Shown here piece by piece: positions 3,985 through 37,212 of a stretch of 64,000 bases of DNA. The stretch covers positions 1,426,001 through 1,490,000 of the forward strand of contig NZ_CP053928.1 in the NCBI RefSeq assembly GCF_014108865.1, given 5' to 3'. Within the stretch, counting starts at the first letter, position 1; every line of letters starts with the position of its first letter. The notes beneath the pieces were generated by a model. It was not told the DNA's origin, ran no database searches, and saw only the letters and a list, made by a program, of their open reading frames with translations. The translations under genes and the position numbers were made by a program. The DNA comes from Nocardioides sp. WS12. Its GTDB lineage: Bacteria; Actinomycetota; Actinomycetes; Propionibacteriales; Nocardioidaceae.

Positions 3985-4061
<77 letters not shown>

Positions 4062-4143: not shown

Positions 4144-5379
4144 TCACCGCGAAATCCCACCTCGCGTACCCCCGCGTACCCCCGCCCCGGTGGGGACCCG
4201 CGGACTGCCTGCCGCGTGCTCCGGCCGAGACTGTCGGATGCCTCCGCGGCGACGCCGTCCCCGCGTCCCCCAGTGCGTCCCCCGCCGCGTCCCCGCTGCT
4301 GCGGCGCCTTGCGACGGACCCTGTCTCGGGGCAGGTCCGCGGCCGGGATCGTTCAGCCGGTCCAGGCCCGCCTGGTCCGCCGAGGTGCCGAGAAAGTGCA
4401 GATAGCGGTTCGTGGTCGCGATCGACTCGTGACCCATCCAGGCCTGCACGGTTCCGGGGTCCACGCCGCGGGCCAGCCACAGGCACGCGGCGGTGTGGCG
4501 CAGGTCGTGGATGCGACGGCCTCCCGCGGTCTGTTCCCACTTGACTGTGCGCAACACCGCATTGCGATGCAGTTGAGAGCCGCCCGCCGTGGTGACCAGG
4601 AGATCGGTGGGCTCCTTGCCGGCCGCCATGCGCTGGATGATCGGCAGGACACGATCGGCCACCGGCACACGCCGCCCGCGGCGTCCCTTGGTGGCCTTGA
4701 CCGCGCCGCCTTCGGACTGCGAGCGGCGCACCAGTAGTCCGGGTGTGGGTACGTCGACCACGTCCTCCACCAGTGCGGCGCGCGCCTCGCCCCACCGCAT
4801 CCCGGTCCAGCCCAGCACGAGAAGGACGTCGGCCAGCTGCGGGTCGCGTTCCTTCCACAGCTCGTAAGTGGCCTCGAGCTCGGCCTCGGTCCACGGCCGC
4901 ATCTCGGTCGGTTCTTCCGAGGACCGCGGAACCTTCGTCGTGGTCACCGGATTGCGAACGACGGCCTTCTCCCGAACGCACCAGGCGAAGAAGGTCGACA
5001 GGCTCGCGCGGTACCTGGTCACCGAGCGCTCGCTGAGCCCGCGCTGGATCAGATGCTCGAACGAGCGCGCAATCTCCCGCTCCGACACGGCCGCCACGTG
5101 CATGAGCTGCATGCTCGTCGGCACCAACCGCTGAAGAGCTTGGTCGCTGCGGTACGTCTTCGCGGCGACGGTGAACTCACGAACGACCAACCACTCCTCG
5201 AGCAGCGTCCTCACCTGGCGGCGTCCCGCGCGGGGGTCGATCCCGCCGGCGAGCGCGGCCTTCTCCCGCGACAGCCACTCGCTCGCCTCGCGCTTCGTGT
5301 CGAAGGTCCGGCTGGCGATGAACTGCCGTCCGCTCTTCAGCCGCGCCCGGAAGCGACCGCTGGAAGTCTTCTCAATCAT
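4144..5379 (-). CDS. int: Tyrosine-type site-specific integrase
   Basis: A phage-type tyrosine recombinase of 411 residues. An arm-binding-like N-terminus (1-60), a SAM-like core-binding domain (about 60-155) and a catalytic domain follow. Catalytic residues visible are R195 (WTGMRWGEAR), K231 in the beta hairpin, H291-x-x-R294 (HDLRH), H317 (MGHESIATT) and nucleophile Y326. The last 75 or so residues are a Gly/Arg/Pro-rich low-complexity tail not expected in the family, possibly read-through beyond the original stop. It points towards tRNA-Ala, and a broken excisionase lies 18 bases upstream. Confidence 0.95.
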   Translation of the reverse strand: MIEKTSSGRFRARLKSGRQFIASRTFDTKREASEWLSREKAALAGGIDPRAGRRQVRTLLEEWLVVREFTVAAKTYRSDQALQRLVPTSMQLMHVAAVSEREIARSFEHLIQRGLSERSVTRYRASLSTFFAWCVREKAVVRNPVTTTKVPRSSEEPTEMRPWTEAELEATYELWKERDPQLADVLLVLGWTGMRWGEARAALVEDVVDVPTPGLLVRRSQSEGGAVKATKGRRGRRVPVADRVLPIIQRMAAGKEPTDLLVTTAGGSQLHRNAVLRTVKWEQTAGGRRIHDLRHTAACLWLARGVDPGTVQAWMGHESIATTNRYLHFLGTSADQAGLDRLNDPGRGPAPRQGPSQGAAAAGTRRGTHWGTRGRRRRGGIRQSRPEHAAGSPRVPTGAGVRGGTRGGISR

Positions 5380-8509: not shown

Positions 8510-8525
8510 ATAACGAAGTTATAGT
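8510..8525 (+). promoter_or_regulatory. TetR-type operator overlapping the -10 box of the SDR gene
   Basis: ATAACGAAGTTAT (8510-8522) is a 5-bp palindrome with a 3-base centre. It overlaps TATAGT (8520-8525), a good -10 box lying only 6 bases before the ATG at 8532, which suggests a leaderless transcript. The same palindrome stands at 10097-10109 before the adjacent tetR and crotonase genes. Confidence 0.65.
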
Positions 8526-8531
8526 TATTGC

Positions 8532-9392
8532 ATGAGCCGAGACCTGCAGGGCCGATCCGTCATCGTCACCGGGGCCGCGCGCGGCATTGGGGAGCAGGTC
8601 GCTCGAACGGCAGTCGCTCGTGGTGCCCGGGTCGGCCTGGTGGGACTCGAGGCCGAGCGGCTGCGGGAGCTCGCCACCGATCTTGGTGAGAGCGCGGTCT
8701 GGCGTGAGGCCGACGTGCGTGATGGTGACGCGCTTCGCGCCGGCATAGACGGCTGTGCAGCGGACCTCGGCTCCGTCGACTTCCTGGTCGCCAACGCTGG
8801 CGTCGCTGCCTACGGCACCGTGCGCAACATCGACGAGGCATCGTTCGAGCGGGTGATTGACATCAACGTGAACGGCGTCTTCCGGACCTTGAAGTACGCG
8901 ACGCCCCATCTGGCGCAGAGTCACGGGCACGCGGTAGTCGTCGCGTCCGCACTGTCGTTCATGCCGTTGGCTGCAATGGCGTCGTACGGCGCCAGCAAGG
9001 CCGGGGTGGAGATGCTGGCGCTGGCCTATCGTCAGGAGGTTGCGCATCTCGGAGTGACGGTGGGCTTGGTGCATCCGTCGTGGATCGACACCGATCTGGT
9101 GCGCGGTGCCGAAGCCGACCTGCCGTCGTTCGCGGCGATGCGCCGGCGGCTGCCCTATCCGGGAAACGTCACGACCAGCGTGGATGACGCTGCTGCAGCC
9201 ATCGTCGATTCGCTGGTAGGTCGGCGGTCGCGGGTCTACGTCCCGCGTGCCGTCGGTGTCGCGAACTGGGCGCAGGGCCTGCTGAATTCCCCGGCGGCGT
9301 GGCCGTGGATGCGCCGCTTCGCAGCGCGGACGGTGCCGACCCTGGAGCGCGAGGTCGACACTCTCGGGCGCAACGATCAGCTGGTCCCGTAG
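8532..9392 (+). CDS. Short-chain dehydrogenase/reductase
   Basis: A classical SDR of 286 residues that oxidises or reduces an alcohol/ketone with NAD(P). It shows the cofactor motif TGAARGIG (residues 14-21), NAG in VANAGVAAYG, and the catalytic YGASK with a preceding Ser (SALSF). The C-terminal extension beyond about 250 residues is typical of the SDRs found beside steroid and terpenoid genes. No Shine-Dalgarno sequence is visible, in line with a leaderless mRNA. It is convergent with the tetR gene, their ends overlapping by 16 bases, and carries the same operator as that regulator. Confidence 0.88.
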   Translation: MSRDLQGRSVIVTGAARGIGEQVARTAVARGARVGLVGLEAERLRELATDLGESAVWREADVRDGDALRAGIDGCAADLGSVDFLVANAGVAAYGTVRNIDEASFERVIDINVNGVFRTLKYATPHLAQSHGHAVVVASALSFMPLAAMASYGASKAGVEMLALAYRQEVAHLGVTVGLVHPSWIDTDLVRGAEADLPSFAAMRRRLPYPGNVTTSVDDAAAAIVDSLVGRRSRVYVPRAVGVANWAQGLLNSPAAWPWMRRFAARTVPTLEREVDTLGRNDQLVP

Positions 9393-10048
9393 CGCGCCAG
9401 GGCTGCTTCGTGGGAGGCCAGGGCGCGCTCCGGGGTGTCGCCGAGGCCGACGCAGAAGGTCACGCCCATCGGGACCAGAACCTGGGTCAATGGGTCCTCG
9501 AACTCGACGAAGTGGTCGGCCAGTTCGAGGCTGATGTAGCCGTGGATGAAGCTCCAGGTGGAGGCTGCCACGACCTCGGGGTCGACGGCGGGGATCCGGC
9601 CGGATGTCACGAGGCGGGCGCAGGCGTCGGTCACGAGCGCGTAGGAAGCCTTGAAGCTGGGGGAGTGTCCGCTCAGCCGGGACCCTCCGCCGGCCGCGGG
9701 CCGGTAGGTCGCTCGAGTGGAGAGTCCGAACATCAGGTCGTAGAGGTGCGGGTTGGCCCGGGCGATCTGGCGGCAACGGGTGGCCATCGCGAAGAGGTCG
9801 GTCACCGGGTCGTCGGTCACCGGAACCTCTGCGAACGCCCGGCCAAGTTCCTCGAAACCGTGATCGGCCACGGCGCTGACGAGTTCGGGCACGCCGCCGA
9901 AGTGGCTGTAGACAACCATCGTCGACAGGCCACAGGCCGCGGCCACCGAGCGCACCTTGATGGCCGACGGGCCTTCCTCGGCGAGCAGCGTGACGGCGGC
10001 CGCCACCAGTCGCTCGGGCACGCTGCCGGAGATCTCGTCCACTGCCAT
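9377..10048 (-). CDS. TetR family transcriptional regulator
   Basis: The 223-residue product (a GTG at 10081 would add 11) has an N-terminal TetR HTH: VRSVAAACGLSTMVVYSHFG, where YSHF is the hallmark of recognition helix 3, followed by an all-helical ligand domain. It is divergent from the crotonase-hydrolase-ligase operon at 10142 and convergent with the SDR at 8532, and both of those promoters carry ATAACGAAGTTAT, so it likely represses both and itself. A paralogue at 29032-29700 guards the fused version of the same enzymes; the ligand-domain patterns (NPHLYDLMFGLSTR versus NPHRYDLMFGLSTR) are nearly identical, implying related ligands. Confidence 0.9.
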   Translation of the reverse strand: MAVDEISGSVPERLVAAAVTLLAEEGPSAIKVRSVAAACGLSTMVVYSHFGGVPELVSAVADHGFEELGRAFAEVPVTDDPVTDLFAMATRCRQIARANPHLYDLMFGLSTRATYRPAAGGGSRLSGHSPSFKASYALVTDACARLVTSGRIPAVDPEVVAASTWSFIHGYISLELADHFVEFEDPLTQVLVPMGVTFCVGLGDTPERALASHEAALARYGTS

Positions 10049-10083
10049 GGTCCTGATGCTTTCACTCGTGGGCTGGATCACCC

Positions 10084-10112
10084 TTGTCGTCCGTTCATAA
10101 CTTCGTTATTCT
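10084..10112 (+). promoter_or_regulatory. Promoter and TetR operator of the crotonase operon
   Basis: TTGTCG (10084-10089), 17-base spacer and TATTCT (10107-10112) form a good sigma-70-type promoter. The palindrome ATAACTTCGTTAT (10097-10109) fills the spacer and overlaps the -10 box, a standard repressor position. The ATG at 10142 has GAGGAAAG upstream. Confidence 0.7.
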
Positions 10113-10141: not shown

Positions 10142-11116
10142 ATGGCGGAGAAGGAAACGGGTCACCTCGAGATCGAGGAACGCGGAGCAGTGGTCGTCGT
10201 ACGCATCGATGGCGGACCGCGGCAGGTGTTCGGCCCCGACATCGCCGCCGAACTGGAGACGCTGGTCGACCGGGTGGACCGCGACCCCGACATTCGCGCG
10301 GTGGTCTTCACGGGCACCCACCCGGACCGGTTCGTCAGCCACGCCGAGGTCCGTTGGCTCCAGGAGGGCGGCGCGGCTGTCCCGGCTGTCGGTCGACGAG
10401 GGGCATCGGCGCTCGCGCGCACGGCGTACGGCGTCAACAAGGCCAGTGCCGCGCTGGCCCCCGCCCTCCGCAACACCCCGCTGTGGCCGGCCGTCGAGCT
10501 CGAGAGCCTGCACCAGACGTTCCTCAAGATGAATCGCAGCGGCGTCATCTTCATAGCGGCACTCAACGGCTCAGCCCTGGGCCTGGGTGCGGAGTTCGCG
10601 TGGGCCAACGACCTGCGCGTGATGGCCGACGGCGACTACTTCATCGGGCAGCCCGAGATCCTGCTCGGCATCATGCCGGGCGGCGGCGGCACCCAGCGCC
10701 TCACTCGACTGATCGGCACCCACCGGTCGCTGGTTGCGATCCTGGAGGGCAAGCCGTTCACGCCGGCCGAAGCCCTTGCGTTCGGCGCGCTCGACGACGT
10801 CGTACCGCAGGAGGAAGTGCTGGATCGGGCGCTGGAACTGGCCGCGCACTTCGGGGCCCGCACCAAGGAATCGGTGGCCGCGATCAAGCGCGCCGTCTAC
10901 CTCGGCGGCTCGATGTCGCTGGAGGACGGCCTGCACGTGGAGCGCACCGAGTTCCTGAGGCAGGCCCTGTCGAAGGAAGGTCAGCGTCTGATGACGGGGT
11001 ACATGGCGGACACTGAGGCGAGCGGCGAGTTGCCGCTCTACAGCGGCGACACGTTCGAACGCGCCATCGCTGAGGGCTCGGTTCCCCGCACCCAGAGCGA
11101 GGTGTCGGCGCGATGA
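10142..11116 (+). CDS. Enoyl-CoA hydratase/isomerase (crotonase) family protein
   Basis: A crotonase-fold protein of 324 residues acting on acyl-CoA thioesters. The oxyanion-hole region ALNGSALGLGAEFAWANDLR carries E151, and GQPEILLGIMPGGGGTQRL carries E172, the positions of both catalytic glutamates of enoyl-CoA hydratase. A roughly 50-residue insertion (75-125) before the active site is unusual; the family is normally about 260 long. Stop and next start overlap (ATGA), and in the locus at 29803 the same two proteins are fused, so hydratase and hydrolase probably act in succession. The precise reaction (hydration, isomerisation or retro-aldol) cannot be read from the sequence. Confidence 0.85.
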   Translation: MAEKETGHLEIEERGAVVVVRIDGGPRQVFGPDIAAELETLVDRVDRDPDIRAVVFTGTHPDRFVSHAEVRWLQEGGAAVPAVGRRGASALARTAYGVNKASAALAPALRNTPLWPAVELESLHQTFLKMNRSGVIFIAALNGSALGLGAEFAWANDLRVMADGDYFIGQPEILLGIMPGGGGTQRLTRLIGTHRSLVAILEGKPFTPAEALAFGALDDVVPQEEVLDRALELAAHFGARTKESVAAIKRAVYLGGSMSLEDGLHVERTEFLRQALSKEGQRLMTGYMADTEASGELPLYSGDTFERAIAEGSVPRTQSEVSAR

Positions 11117-12015
11117 GCACCAAGAAGGTCACCCGCCTCGACGTCCGTTTCCCGTCCGGCGACGCGGACTGCGCGGCCTGGTTGCACCTGCCCGCCGGTG
11201 TCTCGTCGCCGCCCGTCGTGGTGATGGGCCACGGGCTGGGCGCCACCCGCGACATGCGCCTGGACGCGTACGGCGAGCGCTTCGCGCAGGCCGGGATCGC
11301 CGCACTCTCCTTCACCTACCGGCACTTCGGCGACAGCGGGGGTAGCCCCCGCCAACTGCTGTCCATCAAGCGCCAGCTCGCCGACTGGGACGCCGCGCTG
11401 GCTCACGTGCAGACCCGGACGGATGTTGATCCGACGCGGGTCGCCGTGTGGGGCAGTTCCTTCGGTGGGGGCCACGCCATCACCGTGGCCTCCCGGCACC
11501 CCGAACTCCGGGCAGCGGTCGCGCAGTGTCCCTTCACTGACGGCCTGGCCTCGGCGCGCGCACTCGGCCCGCGAGGAACGGCGAAGGTGCTGCCCTCCGT
11601 GGCGCGTGACGTCTTCGCAGCCGCCCGCGGCCGCGCTCCCGTCACGATCCCGCTGGCCGCCGCCCCCGGCGAACTCGCCCTGATGAACGCACCCGATGCG
11701 CTGGACGGCTACCTGGCTCTGGTGCCGGACGGCGGCACCTTCGTCAACGAGGTCGCCGCGCGGGTCGCCCCGACGATCACGACGTACCGCCCTGGTAAGG
11801 CCGCGCGCCGCGTGAAGCCGCCGATCCTGTTCTGCATCACCAATCACGACACGGTCACGCCGGCTGCCCAGACTCTCGCGTACGCGAAGACCGCTCCGCG
11901 CGGCGAGATCAAGGAGTACGACGCCGGCCACTTCGACATCTACCTGGGCGACGCCTTCGAGGACGTCGTCGCCGACCAGGTCGAGTTCCTGACCCGTCAC
12001 CTCCGGAAGGCCTGA
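11113..12015 (+). CDS. Alpha/beta hydrolase
   Basis: The 300-residue product is a serine hydrolase of the dienelactone-hydrolase/FrsA-like group. It has the oxyanion motif VVVMGHGLGATRD (about 36-47), nucleophile S116 in WGSSFGGG, an Asp in CITNHDTVTP and the catalytic His in YDAGHFDIY. It is cytoplasmic, with no signal peptide. It overlaps the crotonase gene by 4 bases and is followed after 5 bases by a CoA ligase. Likely tasks are thioester, ester or C-C bond hydrolysis of the crotonase product; this is inference from the fusion partner at 29803. Confidence 0.85.
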   Translation: MSTKKVTRLDVRFPSGDADCAAWLHLPAGVSSPPVVVMGHGLGATRDMRLDAYGERFAQAGIAALSFTYRHFGDSGGSPRQLLSIKRQLADWDAALAHVQTRTDVDPTRVAVWGSSFGGGHAITVASRHPELRAAVAQCPFTDGLASARALGPRGTAKVLPSVARDVFAAARGRAPVTIPLAAAPGELALMNAPDALDGYLALVPDGGTFVNEVAARVAPTITTYRPGKAARRVKPPILFCITNHDTVTPAAQTLAYAKTAPRGEIKEYDAGHFDIYLGDAFEDVVADQVEFLTRHLRKA

Positions 12016-12020
12016 TCCCG

Positions 12021-13511
12021 GTGCACCTTGCTTCCGTCCCTGATCACCGCGCACAAATGGACCCGAACGGTCGGGCTGTTTCCGATGCGGCCCGGTCGCT
12101 CACCAACGCGGACCTGCTCCAGCAGGTGGCCGCGGCAGCGGAGCACCTGCGCGACCTCGGTGTCGGGCCGGCCGACGTCGTGGCGCTCAAGCTCAGCAAC
12201 AGGGTCGAGTTCGTCGTACTCCTGTTCGCCGCATGGCGACTGGGCGCGACTGTCACCCCGGTGAATCCCGGTCTCACCGAGACCGAGGTCGCCCGGCAAC
12301 TCGATGACGCGAAGGCCCGCCTCCTTGTCGCCGAGAGCGAGGAGGATCTGTTCATGGAGTGTGCGGGCCTGGCCGTCGACAATCTGCGCCGCACGGCCCA
12401 CGACCCCATCCACGAGCCGAAGATCGATGACGCGGCGTTGGCTCTGCTGATCTACACGAGCGGGACCACCGGGGTGCCGAAGGGCGTGATGCTCGACCAC
12501 GCCAACCTGCAGGCGATGGTCGAGATGGGCCGGCAGGGACTCGGTGTCGGTGCTGACGACCGGTGTCTGCTGATCCTTCCGCTGTTCCATGTCAACGGCA
12601 TCGTGGTCAGCGTCCTGCTGCCGCTCGCCACGGGCGCGAGCGTGGTCATCGTGAGCCGGTTCAAGCCGCACACGTTCTTCGACCTGATCGAGGCCGAGCG
12701 GCCGACGTACTTCAGTGCGGTGCCCACGATCTACGCGATGCTGGCGGCGCGCCCGGCCGACGTCACTCCCGACACGTCCTCGGTGCGCTTCGCGGTCTGC
12801 GGAGCCGCCCCGGCGTCCGCCGAACTGTTGCAGCGCTTCGAGGACCGCTACGGGTTCCCCTTGATCGAGGGCTACGGCCTCTCCGAGGCGACCTGCGGTT
12901 CGACGATCAATCCGGTCGACGGACCACGTCGAGCCGGCACCGTCGGACTGCCCTTCCCCGGCCAGGAACTGCGGATCCTTGACGCCGACGGTGCCGAGGC
13001 GGCGCAGGGAACCGCCGGCGAGGTCGTCGTCCGCGGCGCGAACGTCATGCGCGGCTACCTCGGGCGACCCGACGAGACGGCGAAGGTCATCGTCGACGGC
13101 TGGCTGCACACCGGCGACGTCGGACTCCTCGACGCCGAGGGCTACCTCACCCTCGTCGGACGCTCGAAGGACATGATCATCCGCGGCGGCGAGAACATCT
13201 ATCCCAAGGAGATCGAGGACGTCCTCGCCGCGCACCCGTCCGTGCTCGAGGCAGCCGTCATCGGTGTGCCTGACCCGGTCTGGGGCGAGGTCGTCGTCGC
13301 GTACGTCGAAGCGTCGCCCGACCGCGTGATCGACGTCGATGACCTGAAGCGGCACTGCGCGTCGGAACTGTCCGGCTACAAGCGACCGGTCGCATTCCAC
13401 GTGCTCGACGCCCTGCCGCGCAATGCTGTCGGCAAGATCGCCAAACCCGTGCTGCGCACTTCTGCCCAGCGCAACGAGACCATCGAGAACCCTGCACAGA
13501 AGGTTGGCTGA
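12021..13511 (+). CDS. Acyl-CoA synthetase (AMP-forming, class I adenylate-forming)
   Basis: An ANL-superfamily ligase of 496 residues that activates a carboxylic acid with ATP and CoA. Motifs are the P-loop LIYTSGTTGVPKGVML, YGLSEATCG (A5), HTGDVG with GRSKDMIIRGGENIYPKEIE (A7-A8) and the acyl-adenylating Lys in PRNAVGKIAK. It begins at GTG. It is the third gene of the operon starting at 10142 and is followed one base later by a reductase gene. The side-chain specificity is unknown. Confidence 0.9.
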   Translation: MHLASVPDHRAQMDPNGRAVSDAARSLTNADLLQQVAAAAEHLRDLGVGPADVVALKLSNRVEFVVLLFAAWRLGATVTPVNPGLTETEVARQLDDAKARLLVAESEEDLFMECAGLAVDNLRRTAHDPIHEPKIDDAALALLIYTSGTTGVPKGVMLDHANLQAMVEMGRQGLGVGADDRCLLILPLFHVNGIVVSVLLPLATGASVVIVSRFKPHTFFDLIEAERPTYFSAVPTIYAMLAARPADVTPDTSSVRFAVCGAAPASAELLQRFEDRYGFPLIEGYGLSEATCGSTINPVDGPRRAGTVGLPFPGQELRILDADGAEAAQGTAGEVVVRGANVMRGYLGRPDETAKVIVDGWLHTGDVGLLDAEGYLTLVGRSKDMIIRGGENIYPKEIEDVLAAHPSVLEAAVIGVPDPVWGEVVVAYVEASPDRVIDVDDLKRHCASELSGYKRPVAFHVLDALPRNAVGKIAKPVLRTSAQRNETIENPAQKVG

Positions 13512-29031: not shown

Positions 29032-29700
29032 CTAGGGTGCGGCGAGAGCGACAGCGTGCGAGGCTGCTGCGGATTCGTGCGAATCGCCGTGCATGGTCAG
29101 CACGTTCGTGGTCAGGGGTCGGAGGACGTCCTGAACGGGGCTGGCTCGGTGAGCCAGATGCTGGCCGAGTTCCAGGGTGAGGAATCCATGGACGCAGCAC
29201 CACAACTGATCGGCCACCTCATCCGGGTCCGTGGCGCGTGACAGCCTGCCCGCCTGGACCGCACGCTCACAGGCCCGAACAAGATGGCTGTACGTCGTTC
29301 GAAAGGCTCCTGATCGGCGGTCGGCTGACTCGGCTTCCCAGGACCGGTAAGTCCCACGGGTTGAGAGACCGAACATCAGATCGTAACGATGGGGATTGTC
29401 CTGGGCGAACTGCCTCATCGCCAAGGCATGGCTGAACAGGTCGGCAACGGGATCGGGGGACTCGACCAGTCCGACGAATTCAGCTGAAAGGTCCTCGAAG
29501 CCGCGTTCAACAACGGCATGCATCAGTTCAGGCAGGCCGCCGAGGTGGTGGTAGACCGCGCTTGACGACAGCCCGGCAGCGGTTGCCACGGTGCGGGCCT
29601 GGAGCTCGGACGGCCCGTGCCGTGCGAGCAAGTCGGTAGCGGCAGTCACTAGCAGGTCAGTGGCCTGGGTCTTGCTCAGCCGGCGTGCGCTCTGGGTCAT
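29032..29700 (-). CDS. TetR family transcriptional regulator
   Basis: The 222-residue product has TVATAAGLSSSAVYHHLGGL as HTH (YHHL recognition helix) and a ligand domain with NPHRYDLMFGLSTRGTYRSW closely matching the regulator at 9377-10048. It is divergent from the crotonase-hydrolase fusion gene and its promoter region holds the same TAACGAAGTT core, so the two regulators and operators were evidently copied together with the enzymes. A start 6 codons upstream is possible. Confidence 0.9.
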   Translation of the reverse strand: MTQSARRLSKTQATDLLVTAATDLLARHGPSELQARTVATAAGLSSSAVYHHLGGLPELMHAVVERGFEDLSAEFVGLVESPDPVADLFSHALAMRQFAQDNPHRYDLMFGLSTRGTYRSWEAESADRRSGAFRTTYSHLVRACERAVQAGRLSRATDPDEVADQLWCCVHGFLTLELGQHLAHRASPVQDVLRPLTTNVLTMHGDSHESAAASHAVALAAP

Positions 29701-29740: not shown

Positions 29741-29793
29741 TTGCCGGATCGGACTGGCGGCACTAGTATTCCATCACTCTGTAACGAAGTTCC
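29741..29793 (+). promoter_or_regulatory. Promoter and TetR operator of the fusion operon
   Basis: TTGCCG (29741-29746), 17 bases, TAGTAT (29764-29769). GTAACGAAGTTCC (29781-29793) just downstream keeps the TAACGAAGTT core of the operators at 8510 and 10097. AAGGAG precedes the ATG pair at 29803/29806. Confidence 0.6.
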
Positions 29794-29802
29794 ACAAGGA
29801 GC

Positions 29803-31761
29803 ATGATGGACATCGAATTCACCTTCCCCTCGATCGAGGTGCGGCGCCACGGGCAGCACGTCCTGGTGGCTCGGTTGTGCACTGATCTCCATGGACTTCT
29901 GGGCCGGGATGCCGCCCGCGACCTTGCGTTGTTCGTGAAGAAGGCGGATCGAGACCCCAGCGTTCGTGCCGTGGTGCTGACGGGCTCCCACCCGGAGCGC
30001 TTCGTGGGTCACGCTGACCTGGCGTGGTTGCAGGAGGACGGATCGGTTGTCCCGCCCCTGGGTCGCCGGGTGATGTCCGCCGTGGTGTGGCTCGCGCTGA
30101 TGCTGAACTCCAACCCGATCACGAGGTGGGTCGCCCGGCGCACTCCGGTTCAGGGCGCTCTCCAACTCGACGACATGCACAAAACGCTCAACCTCATGTC
30201 GACCAGCTCAACCATTTTCGTGGCGGCGCTGAACGGGTCCGCCCTGGGGCTGGGCGCAGAGATCGCGTGGGCCTGCGATGTGCGGGTGATGGCTGACGGT
30301 GACTACGTGATCGGCCATTTGGAGGTTCTGTTGGGCTTCGCGCCCGGCGCCGGGGGAACCCAACGTCTGACAACGCTCGTGGGTCCGCACCGCGCGCGGC
30401 GACTCATGCTGGAAGGGTCGCCCTTGTCACCCGCCGAGGCCCTGCGGCTCGGTGTGGTGGATGAGGTCGTACCCACGTCGGAAGTAGTGCAGGTGGGAGT
30501 GCGTCAGGCAGAGATCCTCGCAGCTCGACCCCAGTCGGCGATCGGTGCGATCAAGCGCTCCGTGAATGCTGGCATCACTCGCGGGCTCCGCTCAGGCTTG
30601 CGGTGGGAGCGCAGCGAGTTCTTGTCCTCGCTTCCGCAACGGGAAGCCCAACAGATCATGCTCGACTACCTGAGCGACACCGAACGCGACGGCGAGCTGC
30701 CCGTCTACCGATCAGGAGGCTACGGAAGCGCGTTGGCCCGCGGCCGAGCCAACGGGGGAGAGCCAGAGCTCGATCCCAGCCCGGCGCCGAAGCTGCCCGA
30801 TAGTGCGACCTATGGTGTCCAGACGGTGCAGTTCAGGTCTGGTTCGTCGTGGTGTCGAGCCTGGCTCTATGTTCCTCACCACGCTGGGGCTGATTCCCCA
30901 GTGCCGGTGGTCGTGATGGGCCACGGTTTGGGTGCAACTCGCGATCTGGGACTGGCTCCTTACGCGGAAGAGTTCGCCGATCGGGGCATGGCCGCCTTGG
31001 TCTTCACCTACCGAGGTCTGGGTGACAGTGGTGGGCATCCGCGGCAGATCCTCTCGATGAAGCGACAGCTCCAGGACTGGGACGCAGCGATCGCGCACGC
31101 AGTCTCGCTCCCTCAGTTGGACAGCGAGCGGATGGCGATCTGGGGGAGTTCGCTGGGTGGTGGACATGCGATCGCCACGGCGGCACGTCATCCAGAGTTG
31201 GCGGCGATGGTCGCCCAGTGCCCCTTCACCGACGGCGTCGCCTCCGCCCTCGCGCTCGGACCGGGCAAGTCGATGGCACTCGCCTCGCCGATCGTGCGTG
31301 ATCTCGTTGCTGTGGCGCGTCGTCGGCCGGCTGTCATGGTCCCGATCGCAGCGGTTCCCGGCGGGGCAGGCTTGATGAGCACGGTCGACGCCCTGAAGGG
31401 GATGCACGCGCTGGTTCCCGTCGGGCATCAGTGGCGCAACGAAGCGGCGGCGCGCAGTGTCCTGAGCGTCCTTGGCTACCGGCCGGGCCGCTCCGCGCAC
31501 CGCATCGCCGTCCCGTCCCTGATCTGCATCAGCACAACCGACACGGTGGCGCCACCGAAAACGGCCGAACGGCAACTCCGGCGATCGCCGTACGCCGACG
31601 TACGCACCTATGAGGCGGGGCACTTCGCCTTCTACGTCGGTGCCGCATTCGACCAATTGGTCACGGAGCAGGCGGAGTTCCTCGAAGCGCACCTGAGGCC
31701 CGATGTACGGGGCGCTCCGACGATCAGCGCGTCGAGGGGCAGCGATGAGCAGACTCCATGA
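29803..31761 (+). CDS. Crotonase-alpha/beta hydrolase fusion protein
   Basis: A 652-residue two-domain enzyme. Residues 1-312 are a crotonase with ALNGSALGLGAEIAWACD (E153) and GHLEVLLGFAPGAGGTQRL (E174); residues about 335-640 are an alpha/beta hydrolase with VVVMGHGLGATRD, nucleophile S450 in WGSSLGGG and His in YEAGHFAFY. The 20-residue Pro-rich linker is GGEPELDPSPAPKLP. The halves correspond in order and length to the separate overlapping genes at 10142 and 11113, so this is a true fusion of a functional pair. It begins an operon with an SCP2-like protein, an LDI-family protein and a DUF169 protein. Confidence 0.9.
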   Translation: MMDIEFTFPSIEVRRHGQHVLVARLCTDLHGLLGRDAARDLALFVKKADRDPSVRAVVLTGSHPERFVGHADLAWLQEDGSVVPPLGRRVMSAVVWLALMLNSNPITRWVARRTPVQGALQLDDMHKTLNLMSTSSTIFVAALNGSALGLGAEIAWACDVRVMADGDYVIGHLEVLLGFAPGAGGTQRLTTLVGPHRARRLMLEGSPLSPAEALRLGVVDEVVPTSEVVQVGVRQAEILAARPQSAIGAIKRSVNAGITRGLRSGLRWERSEFLSSLPQREAQQIMLDYLSDTERDGELPVYRSGGYGSALARGRANGGEPELDPSPAPKLPDSATYGVQTVQFRSGSSWCRAWLYVPHHAGADSPVPVVVMGHGLGATRDLGLAPYAEEFADRGMAALVFTYRGLGDSGGHPRQILSMKRQLQDWDAAIAHAVSLPQLDSERMAIWGSSLGGGHAIATAARHPELAAMVAQCPFTDGVASALALGPGKSMALASPIVRDLVAVARRRPAVMVPIAAVPGGAGLMSTVDALKGMHALVPVGHQWRNEAAARSVLSVLGYRPGRSAHRIAVPSLICISTTDTVAPPKTAERQLRRSPYADVRTYEAGHFAFYVGAAFDQLVTEQAEFLEAHLRPDVRGAPTISASRGSDEQTP

Positions 31762-32320
31762 CGGTCTCCTGTTCCTGCTTCTGCGAGGACTCGGCTTCCT
31801 GATGAGCACCGGATCACGATTCATGCCATCCCTGCGCTCCCAGATCACCAGGTCCATGACGTTCGAGGTGTCAGCGGGGGACAACGTCTGCCAATACTGG
31901 GAGTTCGACGCAACCCACCGCCGAATTCGCTCCGGCTCAGGTCCGAGTCGTCAGCCCGATGGTGCAGTCCACTTCCAGAGCAGCGGACTTGCCCTGCGGG
32001 CGCTCACCTCAACCACGACCGTGGATCGAGTCGTGACGGGCATTCACCGAGGCTCGGTCACCTTGCAGGGAAGCGCATTCGTGCTGCTGTGGTTCCACGG
32101 ATTGACCCGCAAGTTCGTCAAGCGTGGTCGCACAGCAGGGCCGAACTACGAGCTTCCCCACCGCTATCTCGAGCCCGATCCGAATACATGGGGCGGCGAG
32201 TCCGTCGTCATCGAGCCAGCCGTGACACGGCTCGCCCCTGAGTGGACCGATGCGTGGCGCGCACGATCCACCCTTCTGCAGGTGCGATCCACCACCGACG
32301 AACCAGTTCTGGAGCCTTGA
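31745..32320 (+). CDS. SCP2-like (sterol carrier type) protein, tentative
   Basis: A 191-residue protein starting inside the end of the fusion gene (17-base overlap). A hydrophobic N-terminus (LLFLLLRGLGFLMS) is followed by a segment whose pattern resembles SCP2 domains: PDGAVHFQSSGLALRALT, then GIHRGSVTLQGSAFVLLWFH, with the RGxVxLxG turn. SCP2 domains bind acyl-CoA or sterol-like lipids. The match is by eye and weak; an unrelated lipid-binding or membrane-associated protein is possible. Position directly before the LDI-family gene suggests substrate presentation. Confidence 0.45.
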   Translation: MSRLHDGLLFLLLRGLGFLMSTGSRFMPSLRSQITRSMTFEVSAGDNVCQYWEFDATHRRIRSGSGPSRQPDGAVHFQSSGLALRALTSTTTVDRVVTGIHRGSVTLQGSAFVLLWFHGLTRKFVKRGRTAGPNYELPHRYLEPDPNTWGGESVVIEPAVTRLAPEWTDAWRARSTLLQVRSTTDEPVLEP

Positions 32321-32322
32321 CG

Positions 32323-33903
32323 ATGGAGTTCACACGAAGGACGACCACACACGTCAGCCAGGGACAACATTCCATGAGGACGAGCACTCGGCAGGCTGGG
32401 CTCAACGACCGCTCACTGGGTTGGCTGCGGTTCATGTGGGACAAGGCCACCACGCCTGACGACTGGTCCGATCAGGGCACACCTCACGCGTGGTGGGACC
32501 GCTACAGCGAGCCCCCCATGTGCGCGTTCCCGAGATTCGACGTTGCCGAGATGGGCTACGTCCTGCCCATGATGATCGAGGCGACGCCAGCGTGGCGCGA
32601 AGGGTACATCCGAATCCTCGATGAGCTGATTGCCCGCTACCAGTCCTTCTGGGGCGCCATTGACTGGAACACCCTCATCGGCCCTGACCCCAACGTGGAT
32701 CGGTATCCGCCGGAATGGCTGATGGTGATCCCCGAACACCTGCGGGGGAGCTATCCGCCACCCGGATGGACAGGCAACGGGATCGAACCCTGGGGACTGC
32801 AGCCGGACCCGATCGGTTGCGACGGCAACCTCTTTTACCGCGGCTGGTTGACGCTCCTGATGAGCATCCGTCGCTACATCTCCGGGGACTCGACCGAAGC
32901 GGACTCGTTCCAGGTGACGGGATATCAAAACCGGAAGTTCACGTGGAGTCACGAGCGGATGGCGCAGTTCATGTCGAACCAACTCGTGGCTCGACCGCAG
33001 GGCGCCCACTGTGAGAACACCAAGATCTGGCCGTTCTGCATGAGTGCGGCGGGCCTCGGACTGCAGTTGTACGACGCCGTGCTCGGAACGTCCGTGAATG
33101 ACGCGTTCCGGGGATGGATCAAATACGCCGAACAGCACTACATGGGGCGCGACCGCCACGGCCGGATCGACTGGGTTGCCTTCTACTACGACCCCATCGA
33201 GGACGCGACCATGACGTTCCCCGGGGCCGTCAACGCGTACAGCTCCCTGATCCTGCTCCATTACCTCACTCCGCAGGACCAGCAGTTGGGCATCGACCTG
33301 TACGAATCCTCGATGCGTCGACTCGGCTGGAGTAACCCGAAGATCCCGGTCGTGCAACTGGCTGATGACCCTCAACTGCTCTCCACCGGGCTGTGGATGG
33401 CTCGCGAACTCGGAGATCAGGTCACCTGGGACCGGCTCCGCGAGGTGGCGGAGCGCGAGTTCGAACCACGGTGGTTCGGCGAGGATGACTCCCGCTTCGC
33501 CTTCTGGTTCCAGGAGTCCACCCAGTGGCCCCGCGGACAACTCAATGCCACCATGATGATGGTCGAATGTGCCGAGCCCGGAGCATGGTCGCGGGTGTTC
33601 AACTCGCCGAACCTGGACATGCACCACCAACCGACTGTCCACGGCGTCGACTATCCGACGGTCGGCATCCGGCGAACCCATCACGACGCCGGGCGCGGTG
33701 CCCTGGAGATTGACACCTATGCCGCGACCCCGCGACTGCGGGGCACGAACACGTCGTTCGTCGTCAACCAACTCCCGGTGCTCGATCGTCTGAGCGTGCA
33801 TCTCGACGGTCGACCTCACTCAGCGTGGAAGCCCGAGGGTTCGACGTCCATCCGCATCGACCTCAGCGTCGACTCCCACCATGTCCTCATCACCTACCTG
33901 TGA
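32323..33903 (+). CDS. Linalool dehydratase/isomerase (LDI) family protein
   Basis: A 526-residue soluble protein rich in Trp and Tyr, with the LDI pattern: CENTKIWPFCMSAAGLGLQL carries C230 and C239, nine residues apart like the active-site cysteines of Castellaniella LDI (C170/C179), followed by the YDAVLGT helix. LDI reversibly dehydrates the tertiary alcohol linalool to myrcene and isomerises it to geraniol without cofactor; it forms an (alpha/alpha)6 barrel. Here no periplasmic signal peptide is visible, unlike the Castellaniella enzyme. ATG follows GGAGCC. Family assignment is from motif memory and needs a profile search; substrate may be another isoprenoid or steroid alcohol. Confidence 0.65.
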   Translation: MEFTRRTTTHVSQGQHSMRTSTRQAGLNDRSLGWLRFMWDKATTPDDWSDQGTPHAWWDRYSEPPMCAFPRFDVAEMGYVLPMMIEATPAWREGYIRILDELIARYQSFWGAIDWNTLIGPDPNVDRYPPEWLMVIPEHLRGSYPPPGWTGNGIEPWGLQPDPIGCDGNLFYRGWLTLLMSIRRYISGDSTEADSFQVTGYQNRKFTWSHERMAQFMSNQLVARPQGAHCENTKIWPFCMSAAGLGLQLYDAVLGTSVNDAFRGWIKYAEQHYMGRDRHGRIDWVAFYYDPIEDATMTFPGAVNAYSSLILLHYLTPQDQQLGIDLYESSMRRLGWSNPKIPVVQLADDPQLLSTGLWMARELGDQVTWDRLREVAEREFEPRWFGEDDSRFAFWFQESTQWPRGQLNATMMMVECAEPGAWSRVFNSPNLDMHHQPTVHGVDYPTVGIRRTHHDAGRGALEIDTYAATPRLRGTNTSFVVNQLPVLDRLSVHLDGRPHSAWKPEGSTSIRIDLSVDSHHVLITYL

Positions 33904-33923
33904 ACTCGCACGAAGGAAATCTC

Positions 33924-34604
33924 ATGTCGCCCTACGCAGACCTCAACAACCGTCTTGGCGCTCTGCTGACCCTCACCAGTGCGCCCGTCGCGGTCACCTT
34001 CAGGGAAACTGCCCCGTCGGGAGACGTGGATCCAGTCGCACCAGCGCCGGCTGGGTGTTGCTTCTGGGCGCCCGCCCGGGAGCAACGTCTTGACACCATT
34101 CCTGCCGACCACGCGAACTGCAGCGTGGGCAGCTACACCCACGGCCTCCTGCCGTTGGCGGAGGCCGCAGCAGGAGCAGACACCGCTGCTCTGCTGGCCA
34201 GTGGGTGGGTGGGCGAAGCCGATCTCGTGGGCGCCCCGGTGCTGCCGTTCGCCCCGGCATCGATCACCTACGAACCCCTGGCGGAGGCGACCAGTCCCGA
34301 TGTCGTCCTGCTGCGGCTCACGGCGTCTGCTGTGATGACACTTGCAGGAGCGATTCCGGAGCTGAAGTTGGTGCCCAAACCGCAGTGTGTCATCGTCCCG
34401 CTCGCCTACTCAGGCGAGGTCGCCGTCAGCCCGGGCTGTGCGGTGAGCCGGACCCGGACTTCGTTGCCCGACGATGAAATGACGTGCGCTGTGCCGGCGG
34501 CGAATCTCCATTCGTTCATCGATCGGTTGACCGCCTCGAGTGTGGCCGATCGAGCAGTCAGCGAGTTCGCGGCAGCCGACATGGCAGCCAACTTCAGCGG
34601 TTGA
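33924..34604 (+). CDS. DUF169 family protein
   Basis: A 226-residue protein with the DUF169 features: an N-terminal LxSAPVAVTF segment, GCCFWAPA, DHANCSVGSYTHG (conserved D-H-x-x-C-x-x-G) and a late SPGCAVSRTRTSLPDDEM. Cysteines in three conserved places suggest metal or cluster binding, but the biochemical role of the family is unknown. GAAGGA lies 7 bases before the ATG. It closes the fusion-SCP2-LDI operon and so may serve the same reaction sequence. Confidence 0.78.
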   Translation: MSPYADLNNRLGALLTLTSAPVAVTFRETAPSGDVDPVAPAPAGCCFWAPAREQRLDTIPADHANCSVGSYTHGLLPLAEAAAGADTAALLASGWVGEADLVGAPVLPFAPASITYEPLAEATSPDVVLLRLTASAVMTLAGAIPELKLVPKPQCVIVPLAYSGEVAVSPGCAVSRTRTSLPDDEMTCAVPAANLHSFIDRLTASSVADRAVSEFAAADMAANFSG

Positions 34605-34704: not shown

Positions 34705-35520
34705 TCACGTGCCGATGGCCTCGTTGAACAGACCTGCATAGAACAGCTGGGCAATGATCGTGGCCGAGGCACTGATCAGCATCAGGTTGACGAGCATGGA
34801 CTGCGCCGTGGCATGGCCGACGCCCACAGGTCCGCCCTCCGCGGTGTACCCGAAGTAGCAGGAAACAAGTGTCACGATCACGGCCACGATGGTCGCCCAG
34901 AGCACTGCGATGGTGAGGTCGCGTGGGCTCTGGAACAGGAACAGGACGTAGTGGTACCCGCCCGGGGACACGGCGCCGAGCGCGTCGACGAAGAAGAACT
35001 TCGACGCGGCGAAGTGAATGCCCAGTGCGATGGTGAACATCGGCGGAACCACCACGATCGCGGCCATCAGGCGGGTTCCTACCAGGAACGGCAGGGACTG
35101 GACGCCCATCACCTCCATGCCGTCGATCTCCTCACTGATCCGCATGGCACCGAGCTCGGCAACGGTGCCGCAGCCGGCCTTTGCCGCCAGGACCCACCCG
35201 AACACGATCTGGGAGATCCCACGCATCATGGGCACCGCAGTGATGGAGCCCACGTAGCTCTCCAGCCCGATCCCTTCGAAGAGGAAGGTCCCGGTGATGC
35301 CAATGAGCGCCCCGAGCATGAAGAGCATGAAGAAGACGACCGGTGCATTCGACTTGATCATCAGCCCGACCTGCCGCATCACTTCGCTCGGGTAGAGCCG
35401 GAGCGCGGTGGGGACGGACTTGAACGCCTGGACAGAGAAGGAAACGAGCGAGCCCGCTCCCCGCAGAAGTGATGTGCCGGGCGCGTCGGATCCGGGAGCG
35501 CTGGTCCGGTCGGTGCTCAT
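34705..35520 (-). CDS. YrbE/MlaE-type ABC transporter permease (second subunit)
   Basis: A 271-residue permease with four to five membrane segments and the MlaE coupling motif ISEEIDGMEVMGVQSLPFLV facing the ATPase. Such YrbE proteins work in pairs with MCE proteins and an MceG/Mkl ATPase to import lipids such as sterols. The start overlaps the stop of its partner (ATGA). No MCE gene follows in the window, although YrbE pairs normally precede six of them. Confidence 0.9.
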   Translation of the reverse strand: MSTDRTSAPGSDAPGTSLLRGAGSLVSFSVQAFKSVPTALRLYPSEVMRQVGLMIKSNAPVVFFMLFMLGALIGITGTFLFEGIGLESYVGSITAVPMMRGISQIVFGWVLAAKAGCGTVAELGAMRISEEIDGMEVMGVQSLPFLVGTRLMAAIVVVPPMFTIALGIHFAASKFFFVDALGAVSPGGYHYVLFLFQSPRDLTIAVLWATIVAVIVTLVSCYFGYTAEGGPVGVGHATAQSMLVNLMLISASATIIAQLFYAGLFNEAIGT

Positions 35521-36392
35521 CGGAATCCTCCGAGTTCGGGGAAAAGGCCCAGGACGACTGCGTTGTAGCCCAACTGGAGGACGAACAGTGCGAGGAAGCA
35601 GACCACCACGCTCTGGTTGACCGCGCGGCCAAGGCCGGTCGATCCCCCCTGGGCGTGGAGGCCCTTGTAACTGGAGACGGTGGCGATGATCGTCCCGGCC
35701 AGCAAGCAGTTGACCACCATGGCGATCAGTTCGGTCTGACTCTGATTGATCCACAGGAACGAGTAGAAGTCGGGAGACTCGATCCCACCGATGAAGCTGG
35801 CGGCGAATTGGCAGGAGAGGATCGCGATCCACTGGGCAGGGATGCTGAGGAGGGTTGTGATGAGGATGACCGCGACGACCTTCGGCAGCACCAGGACCCG
35901 GATCGGGTCCACCCCCATGACCACCATGGCGTCGAGTTCCTCGCGGACCTTTCTCGAGCCGAGTTCGGCTGTGATCGAGGCTCCGATCACGCCTGCGACC
36001 AGCAGGGTGGAGACCCATACCGTGAAGGTTCGCGTGCAGTGGACGACCAGGAGTGGTCCGAAGTACTCACCCACACCGGCAAGGTTGACGAACTGCATGC
36101 CTGTGGTCGCGAGCGCTGTGAGGAAGCCGAAGATCCCGACCGCGATCGCGAACCACGACTTCGTGATGGTGAAGTGCATCTGCTCCACGACATCGCCCCA
36201 GTAGCCGCGTGGGTTCCGTACGGCGCTCCGCAAGACCTTGCCCAGCAACATCGCCATCCCGCCGACCTCGGCGACAAGGTCCCGGGGCCCGGACGGGATG
36301 AGGGCGACGGCGCGGTTCAGCCGGCCGTCGTATGGCCCCCCGGCCTCGATCGGCGGCCCTTCCGGAAGCACGCGCTGACTGCGTTCACGCAC
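35517..36392 (-). CDS. YrbE/MlaE-type ABC transporter permease (first subunit)
   Basis: A 291-residue permease starting at GTG, with an N-terminal amphipathic region (DLVAEVGGMAMLLGKVL), membrane segments at roughly 75-95, 110-130, 165-195, 215-235 and 255-280, and the coupling helix VREELDAMVVMGVDPIRVLV typical of YrbE A subunits. It overlaps the upstream membrane protein gene by 8 bases and its partner by 4. It should form the heterodimeric lipid-import channel with the protein at 34705. Confidence 0.9.
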   Translation of the reverse strand: MRERSQRVLPEGPPIEAGGPYDGRLNRAVALIPSGPRDLVAEVGGMAMLLGKVLRSAVRNPRGYWGDVVEQMHFTITKSWFAIAVGIFGFLTALATTGMQFVNLAGVGEYFGPLLVVHCTRTFTVWVSTLLVAGVIGASITAELGSRKVREELDAMVVMGVDPIRVLVLPKVVAVILITTLLSIPAQWIAILSCQFAASFIGGIESPDFYSFLWINQSQTELIAMVVNCLLAGTIIATVSSYKGLHAQGGSTGLGRAVNQSVVVCFLALFVLQLGYNAVVLGLFPELGGFR

Positions 36393-37161
36393 GGCCGGGC
36401 TCCCAACCGGCAGCGAGGGCTTCCTGGCGGATCGCTCGCAACAGCGCCCACGTCATCACGGGGAACCAGCTGCCGAAGGCAGCGGCGGGAATCCAGAACC
36501 CGATCATCCCGGTCCACGCGAACACGCCGTCGTGGAAGAAGACGATGAGTGATGCCGGGAGCACCAGGAACGAGAGCCAAAGACTGAACCACGCGATCCA
36601 ACGGGGAAAGACAGGCTCATCGGTTCCGTCGCCGAGTGTGACCACGGCGATCGCGACCAACTGACCCACGACCGGCGGCCACGGAAGGATGAGCAGGATG
36701 TAGGAGAAGTCGTTCATGAGGAGGGTGATCTCGGCAGGCCGTTCGGGCCGAAAGGCACCCACCATGAAGAAGACCATCGGCACGATCGAGATCACGGTCA
36801 CGACGATCCCGGAGCCGAACTGGAGCGCGGACATCATCGGAACGCCCGGTTCTGCCCGCCGCATCTGGAGGCTGACCACCAGCGAGAACGGCAGCGTGAG
36901 GAAGGCGCCGCCCATGGCCAGGGTCAGCCCGATCAGACGCAGCGTCTGGTTGGACGCATAGTGCTCAGCGACCTGTGCAGCGGAGTCCGTCGCGGGGACG
37001 AGCGGAATGAAGCCGGCCATCAGACCCCACCCACCGAAGAGACAGAGCGTGAACACCGGTCCGCACCAGGCCATCACGACCTGCACCTGACGCGCGCGTT
37101 CGGCTTGTCTCCTCCGCAGGTCGGGAGCAGCCGATTCCGGTGACTGCACGATCTGGCTCAT
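36385..37161 (-). CDS. Polytopic membrane protein of unknown function
   Basis: A 258-residue protein with about six predicted membrane segments (for instance VVMAWCGPVFTLCLFGGWGL and IVVTVISIVPMVFFMVG) and a cytoplasmic, Arg-rich N-terminus. I do not recognise the family. It overlaps the YrbE pair and should be co-transcribed with it, suggesting a part in the same uptake system in place of, or in addition to, MCE proteins. The start MSQIVQSPES was chosen over one 16 codons earlier because it follows GGAGCCGCC. Confidence 0.6.
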   Translation of the reverse strand: MSQIVQSPESAAPDLRRRQAERARQVQVVMAWCGPVFTLCLFGGWGLMAGFIPLVPATDSAAQVAEHYASNQTLRLIGLTLAMGGAFLTLPFSLVVSLQMRRAEPGVPMMSALQFGSGIVVTVISIVPMVFFMVGAFRPERPAEITLLMNDFSYILLILPWPPVVGQLVAIAVVTLGDGTDEPVFPRWIAWFSLWLSFLVLPASLIVFFHDGVFAWTGMIGFWIPAAAFGSWFPVMTWALLRAIRQEALAAGWEPGRA

Positions 37162-37212
37162 GGGGCGGCTCCTGTGGGTGCGATGACGTGATGGGCACCA
37201 CATTCGCATTCT

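Follow-up and report, generated by a model that had tools for sequence, protein, structure and literature searches.

Does the joining of a crotonase and an alpha/beta-hydrolase in one gene mean that the two enzymes act on the same intermediate? The question is raised by a locus of Nocardioides sp. WS12, located in a stretch of 64,000 nucleotides that we analysed as a whole (the window). According to the original prediction, one gene carries both enzymes, their counterparts lie elsewhere in the window as separate overlapping genes, and this double arrangement points to a common intermediate.

The fused gene and its separate counterparts

The segments considered are the following (for operon types, see below).

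29803..31761, + strand: fused crotonase / alpha/beta-hydrolase gene, 652 aa (BLASTP and Pfam)
29803..30741, + strand: crotonase half, with E153 (30259-30261), E174 (30322-30324) and a helical insert at about residues 80-117
30742..30822, + strand: linker of about 25 residues (about 314-340)
30823..31701, + strand: alpha/beta-hydrolase half, with S450 (31150-31152), D580 (31540-31542) and H607 (31621-31623)
10142..11116, + strand: separate crotonase, in a paralogous operon
11113..12015, + strand: separate hydrolase
12021..13511, + strand: acyl-CoA synthetase, found behind the split pair in most relatives

The fused gene is a single uninterrupted reading frame of 652 codons. In BLASTP comparisons, residues 11-314 are 48% identical to the product of 10142-11116 (E 6e-90) and residues 342-632 are 54% identical to that of 11113-12015 (E 2e-103). 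The profiles follow in series, ECH_1 (E 2.6e-32) and then Hydrolase_4/Abhydrolase_1 (E 4.9e-15 / 7.6e-12). The first part of the original prediction is thus confirmed, as is the stop-start overlap of four bases in the separate copy (ATGA at 11113-11116). With 112.6 bits for ECH_1 and 55.9 bits for Hydrolase_4, against a cut-off of 27 in both cases, the halves belong to the crotonase and alpha/beta-hydrolase superfamilies, respectively. Scores stayed under the cut-offs of the named NCBIfam equivalogs for enoyl-CoA hydratase, the best ones shown being 102.7 bits against 363 for the fusion and 117.5 against 355 for the split crotonase.

The halves are indeed joined by the Pro-rich linker that had been proposed. 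However, it is not new sequence throughout, as its initial part is similar to the tail with which the type-F crotonase of Gordonia naturally ends. Between the conserved GGY motif and the hydrolase strand lie 105 bases in the fusion versus 103 in the split genes of a relative (G051). This small net change in length, together with the loss of the stop and of the start, brought both frames into register. No usable hydrolase start codon is left at the expected place in the linker, and the sole in-frame candidate nearby, GTG 30826, lies within the first strand of the modelled hydrolase fold.

Could the fusion be a sequencing or assembly error, the true genes being split as in the relatives? The fused form is known from a single genome, and a TAG at 30801, in another frame of the linker, could end a shifted crotonase frame. 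We nevertheless regard this explanation as highly improbable. The genome is one contig of 5.17 Mb, and GTG 30826 could hardly serve as a hydrolase start. Moreover, the triplet aligned with the Gordonia crotonase stop is also altered, so that a single base error would not restore the split form.

Operons, relatives and descent

The two copies lie in two paralogous operons, whose further elements are listed here.

8510..8522, no strand assigned: second perfect operator ATAACGAAGTTAT, before the SDR gene 8532-9392
9377..10081, - strand: divergent TetR of the split operon (profile and gene context)
10097..10109, no strand assigned: perfect operator ATAACTTCGTTAT; the genome has only two such sites
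29032..29700, - strand: divergent TetR of the fusion operon, 222 aa, ATG at 29700
29780..29794, + strand: degenerate operator TGTAACGAAGTTCCA, before the fusion and identical before the Gordonia orthologue
31745..32320, + strand: SCP2-like protein by visual assignment (no Pfam match), its likely start overlapping the fusion end by 17 bp
32323..33903, + strand: Ldi (linalool dehydratase/isomerase-like) protein (profile and gene context)
33825..34604, + strand: DUF169 protein, final conserved gene of the fusion operon (profile and gene context)

The separate pair belongs to type A (SDR / TetR, crotonase, hydrolase, CoA ligase, often with QOR, OYE and more hydrolases nearby), its CoA ligase position being occupied here by the acyl-CoA synthetase, which was assigned by profile and gene context. 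This operon is found in most genomes carrying the pair and on two Rhodococcus opacus plasmids. The fusion belongs to type F (TetR / crotonase, hydrolase, SCP2-like, Ldi-like, DUF169), found in four genomes. Regulator and operator are duplicated, as had been noticed from the sequence. The two TetR proteins are 45% identical over 196 aa, and the 10-bp operator core TAACGAAGTT is present at both operons, with three copies in the window (8511; 10099, - strand; 29782) versus 0.01 expected, every one of which precedes the SDR, the split or the fusion transcription unit. The longer ATAACnnnGTTAT stands before most type-A operons and has exactly two copies (8510 and 10097) in the 5.17 Mb genome; judging by the copy at 8510-8522, the SDR gene is in the same regulon as the split pair.

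In our trees, both halves of the fusion cluster with their unfused type-F counterparts in G051 and in another relative, G273, and not with the split copy of the same genome. Support for the hydrolase type-F clade is 100/98, and the crotonase placement is less resolved. The "two independent arrangements" of the original prediction therefore stand as two paralogous operons, while the fusion itself is, by these trees, a single event within the second. Type F is fused here and split in G051. In Gordonia asplenii, the SCP2-like gene directly follows the crotonase and there is no hydrolase. In G273 (L083:1074-2200), the hydrolase is preceded only by an apparent C-terminal remnant of a crotonase, further copies of which lie elsewhere in that genome. 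With the pair split in one relative, the hydrolase absent in a second and the crotonase decayed in a third, the two genes, though strongly linked in the split operon, need not occur together in the lineage where the fusion arose. The Ldi-like protein, a member of a conserved actinobacterial group, is 64-78% identical to its type-F counterparts in Gordonia asplenii, G051 and G273.

We surveyed about 1,285 distinct genomes, from the genus, family, order and class as well as from the family and genus of Gordonia. In about 30 genomes, from several families of actinobacteria, the split genes stood side by side in different frames and mostly with an overlap, and the fused form was found in one genome only. 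Since only the best few candidates were scored per genome, this does not establish exhaustively that the fused form is rare. Nearly all split junctions are an ATGA (4-bp overlap), a TGATG (1-bp overlap) or a gap of at most about 8 bp, always out of frame; on one plasmid (L124), the hydrolase ATG lies 8 bp past the crotonase stop. The hydrolase is directly behind the crotonase in 33 of the 44 homologues read in context (this genome excluded), a set partly picked with the whole fusion as query. When the crotonase half alone was used, the hydrolase adjoined 9 of 15 close homologues and was absent beside the other six. The hydrolase belongs to a far larger family than this crotonase does, and in two cases a hydrolase is found with a CoA ligase and no crotonase. 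As to whether the two domains rarely occur together, the picture is thus mixed. No hydrolase relative was found in the viral contigs searched.

Two observations concern the hydrolase family itself. In two genomes (L098 and L100, from G137 and G103), the hydrolase sits on a long branch beside a normal crotonase, which suggests that one partner alone was replaced or is changing fast. At another locus (L111:9584-12089), a hydrolase paralogue with 43% identity in the same genome has a BVMO-like gene and an SDR as neighbours, a context that hints at ester or lactone hydrolysis within the family.

A mirror-tree comparison of the split operon with six control genes gave a crotonase-hydrolase distance correlation no higher than those with SDR, QOR and ACS. 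An apparent excess (0.86 versus 0.57-0.63 for ACS) had come from mixing both operon types, and disappeared once the comparison was restricted to the split operon. This comparison therefore reveals nothing beyond operon co-inheritance. Of the claim that the two proteins act on one intermediate, the functional link is supported, by the conserved pair in some 30 genomes and one fusion, but the coupling is not above that of other cluster genes. The halves might then merely share a pathway, without a common intermediate, in which case the fusion would be a chance joining of neighbours with co-expression as its only benefit. The single fused case, the crotonases without hydrolase and the hydrolases without crotonase, and the absence of excess co-evolution are all consistent with this. 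However, gene order and the mostly overlapping junctions are kept across several families, and the fusion retains both active sites (see below), and we consider this reading as a whole rather unlikely.

Active sites and possible chemistry

By sequence and model, the fusion is shown to consist of two complete domains with their catalytic residues intact, descended from split type-F genes. In the crotonase half, E153 and E174, which align with the hydratase glutamates of 2pbp, are invariant in all 46 sequences compared, as are H70 and H126. In the hydrolase half, S450 is invariant in 48 alignment rows (including a truncated frame of 205 aa, L109), and D580 and H607 are found in 47 of the 48. The expectation that both active sites remain intact was thus borne out, these residues being conserved in essentially all of about 45 relatives.

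For the whole fusion, the joint alignment wrongly put the C-terminal portion of the crotonase rows onto the hydrolase; the halves were therefore modelled apart with AlphaFold, and the models carry no predicted domain interface. Mean pLDDT was 90.7 for the crotonase and 92.8 for the hydrolase, with a pTM of 0.90. The crotonase model matches enoyl-CoA hydratase 3rrv over the whole domain (Z 31.2, rmsd 1.9, 252 aligned) and has two additional helices, 88-102 and 105-112. The best match of the hydrolase model is 7qjm (Z 37.7, rmsd 2.3, 290 aligned); this structure, the thioesterase DcsB (Z 34.4, rmsd 2.3, 285 aligned) and GrgF (Z 33.9, rmsd 2.6, 283 aligned) rank above esterases and lipases.

Our preferred reading, to which we give about an even chance, is that of a bifunctional catabolic enzyme that arose by in-frame fusion of an adjacent pair. 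A crotonase and a hydrolase neighbouring each other in an ancestral TetR-controlled operon would have been joined in frame. The crotonase half, with its hydratase-type glutamates, would hydrate a bulky hydrophobic alpha,beta-unsaturated acyl-CoA, and the Ser-Asp-His triad of the hydrolase half would cleave the hydroxyacyl thioester so produced, or a lactone derived from it, to give the free acid. The catalytic residues are most simply read in terms of hydration and subsequent hydrolysis of a thioester or lactone. A precedent for this order is found in methacrylyl-CoA hydratase with hydroxyisobutyryl-CoA hydrolase. As crotonases form trimers or hexamers, the fusion would hold the hydrolase around the crotonase core at a 1:1 stoichiometry. 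Our results suggest that the two enzymes catalyse consecutive steps of one breakdown pathway, and we infer that the two halves act sequentially. Several points weigh against the preferred reading. Some crotonases of the subfamily, that of Gordonia included, have no adjacent hydrolase. The hydrolase fold spans esterases, lipases and lactonases besides thioesterases, and the paralogue beside the BVMO-like gene would rather fit lactone or ester hydrolysis. Finally, a thioesterase adjoining an acyl-CoA synthetase would be partly futile.

The gene content around the pair (Pfam, NCBIfam) includes SDRs, OYE-family reductases, CoA ligases, a thiolase, a hydroxyacyl-CoA dehydrogenase, a BVMO-like flavoprotein, an MlaE-type permease and the Ldi-like protein. 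Such reductases and dehydrogenases are typical of ring degradation, and the crotonase half could instead be a C-C bond hydrolase performing a reverse Dieckmann opening of a cyclic beta-keto acyl-CoA, after which the hydrolase would remove CoA or open a lactone. EchA20 and BadI are ring-opening hydrolases of the crotonase fold (PMC5380842), and the invariant additional H70 and H126 could serve other chemistry than hydration. We find this unlikely, as both hydratase-type glutamates are invariant and the closest solved sequences and structural matches of the crotonase half are ordinary enoyl-CoA hydratases. No beta-diketone hydrolase of the 6-oxocamphor type was prominent among the matches listed, although such a relation may exist.

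Judging by the OYE-type reductases, SDRs, BVMO-like enzyme, hydrolases and CoA ligases, the growth substrate may be alicyclic or terpenoid-like, and the MlaE-type permease, encoded with a neighbouring gene at 35517-37209, suggests that a hydrophobic substrate is imported. At one side lie a tRNA-Ala (cgc) gene (3985-4060) and, on the opposite strand, a phage-type integrase gene (4144-5379), likely an integration site edging the catabolic region. This flank and the catabolic gene content suggest a mobile or formerly mobile degradation island. Tentatively, and with more doubt than for hydration followed by hydrolysis as such, the fusion may be a composite enzyme of a kind not described before, in which a bulky or reactive CoA intermediate is channelled between hydratase and serine hydrolase as part of an equally undescribed alicyclic/terpenoid pathway of actinobacteria; the split pair of some 30 genomes would then form a two-protein complex.

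The fusion flags as likely partners two enzymes that are widespread among actinobacteria and filed merely as "enoyl-CoA hydratase" and "alpha/beta hydrolase". As a single polypeptide, it also offers a handle for finding out what is degraded by an uncharacterised catabolic cluster (SDR, crotonase, hydrolase, CoA ligase, QOR, OYE), and one operon family here displays splitting, loss and fusion.

Likeness to known systems

A literature search covering fused crotonases, Ldi-like genes and ring cleavage turned up neither the cluster nor the fusion. The crotonase half shares its fold and both catalytic glutamates with enoyl-CoA hydratases (PF00378), from which it differs by the extra helical segment at about 80-117, the invariant H70 and H126, and the attached hydrolase. 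The hydrolase half shares the whole-domain fold and the Ser-Asp-His triad of DcsB (7d78), GrgF (6lzh) and 7qjm. However, its identity to them is only 20-27%, and it sits in a catabolic island, whereas DcsB and GrgF are fungal biosynthetic enzymes. Its best NCBIfam match is the UilS family of N-acyl-homoserine lactonases (NF047920), with scores of 123.2 and 133.6 bits that remain far under the family cut-off of 400.

FadB and FadJ are natural fusions of a crotonase with the next enzyme acting on its product, a layout that this gene would share, and the crotonase half matches FadB-type alpha chains over the whole domain. Their partner is a hydroxyacyl-CoA dehydrogenase, a domain absent from the C-terminal half here, where the profiles identify an alpha/beta-hydrolase instead. 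RpfF, the DSF synthase, is a crotonase-fold enzyme that unites dehydration with thioester hydrolysis in one polypeptide (PMC6361424), and thus a precedent. The crotonase half also matches its fold (6dgn; Z 28.6, rmsd 2.4, 260 aligned). RpfF, however, relies on one crotonase active site working on acyl-ACP, whereas the fusion has two separate domains.
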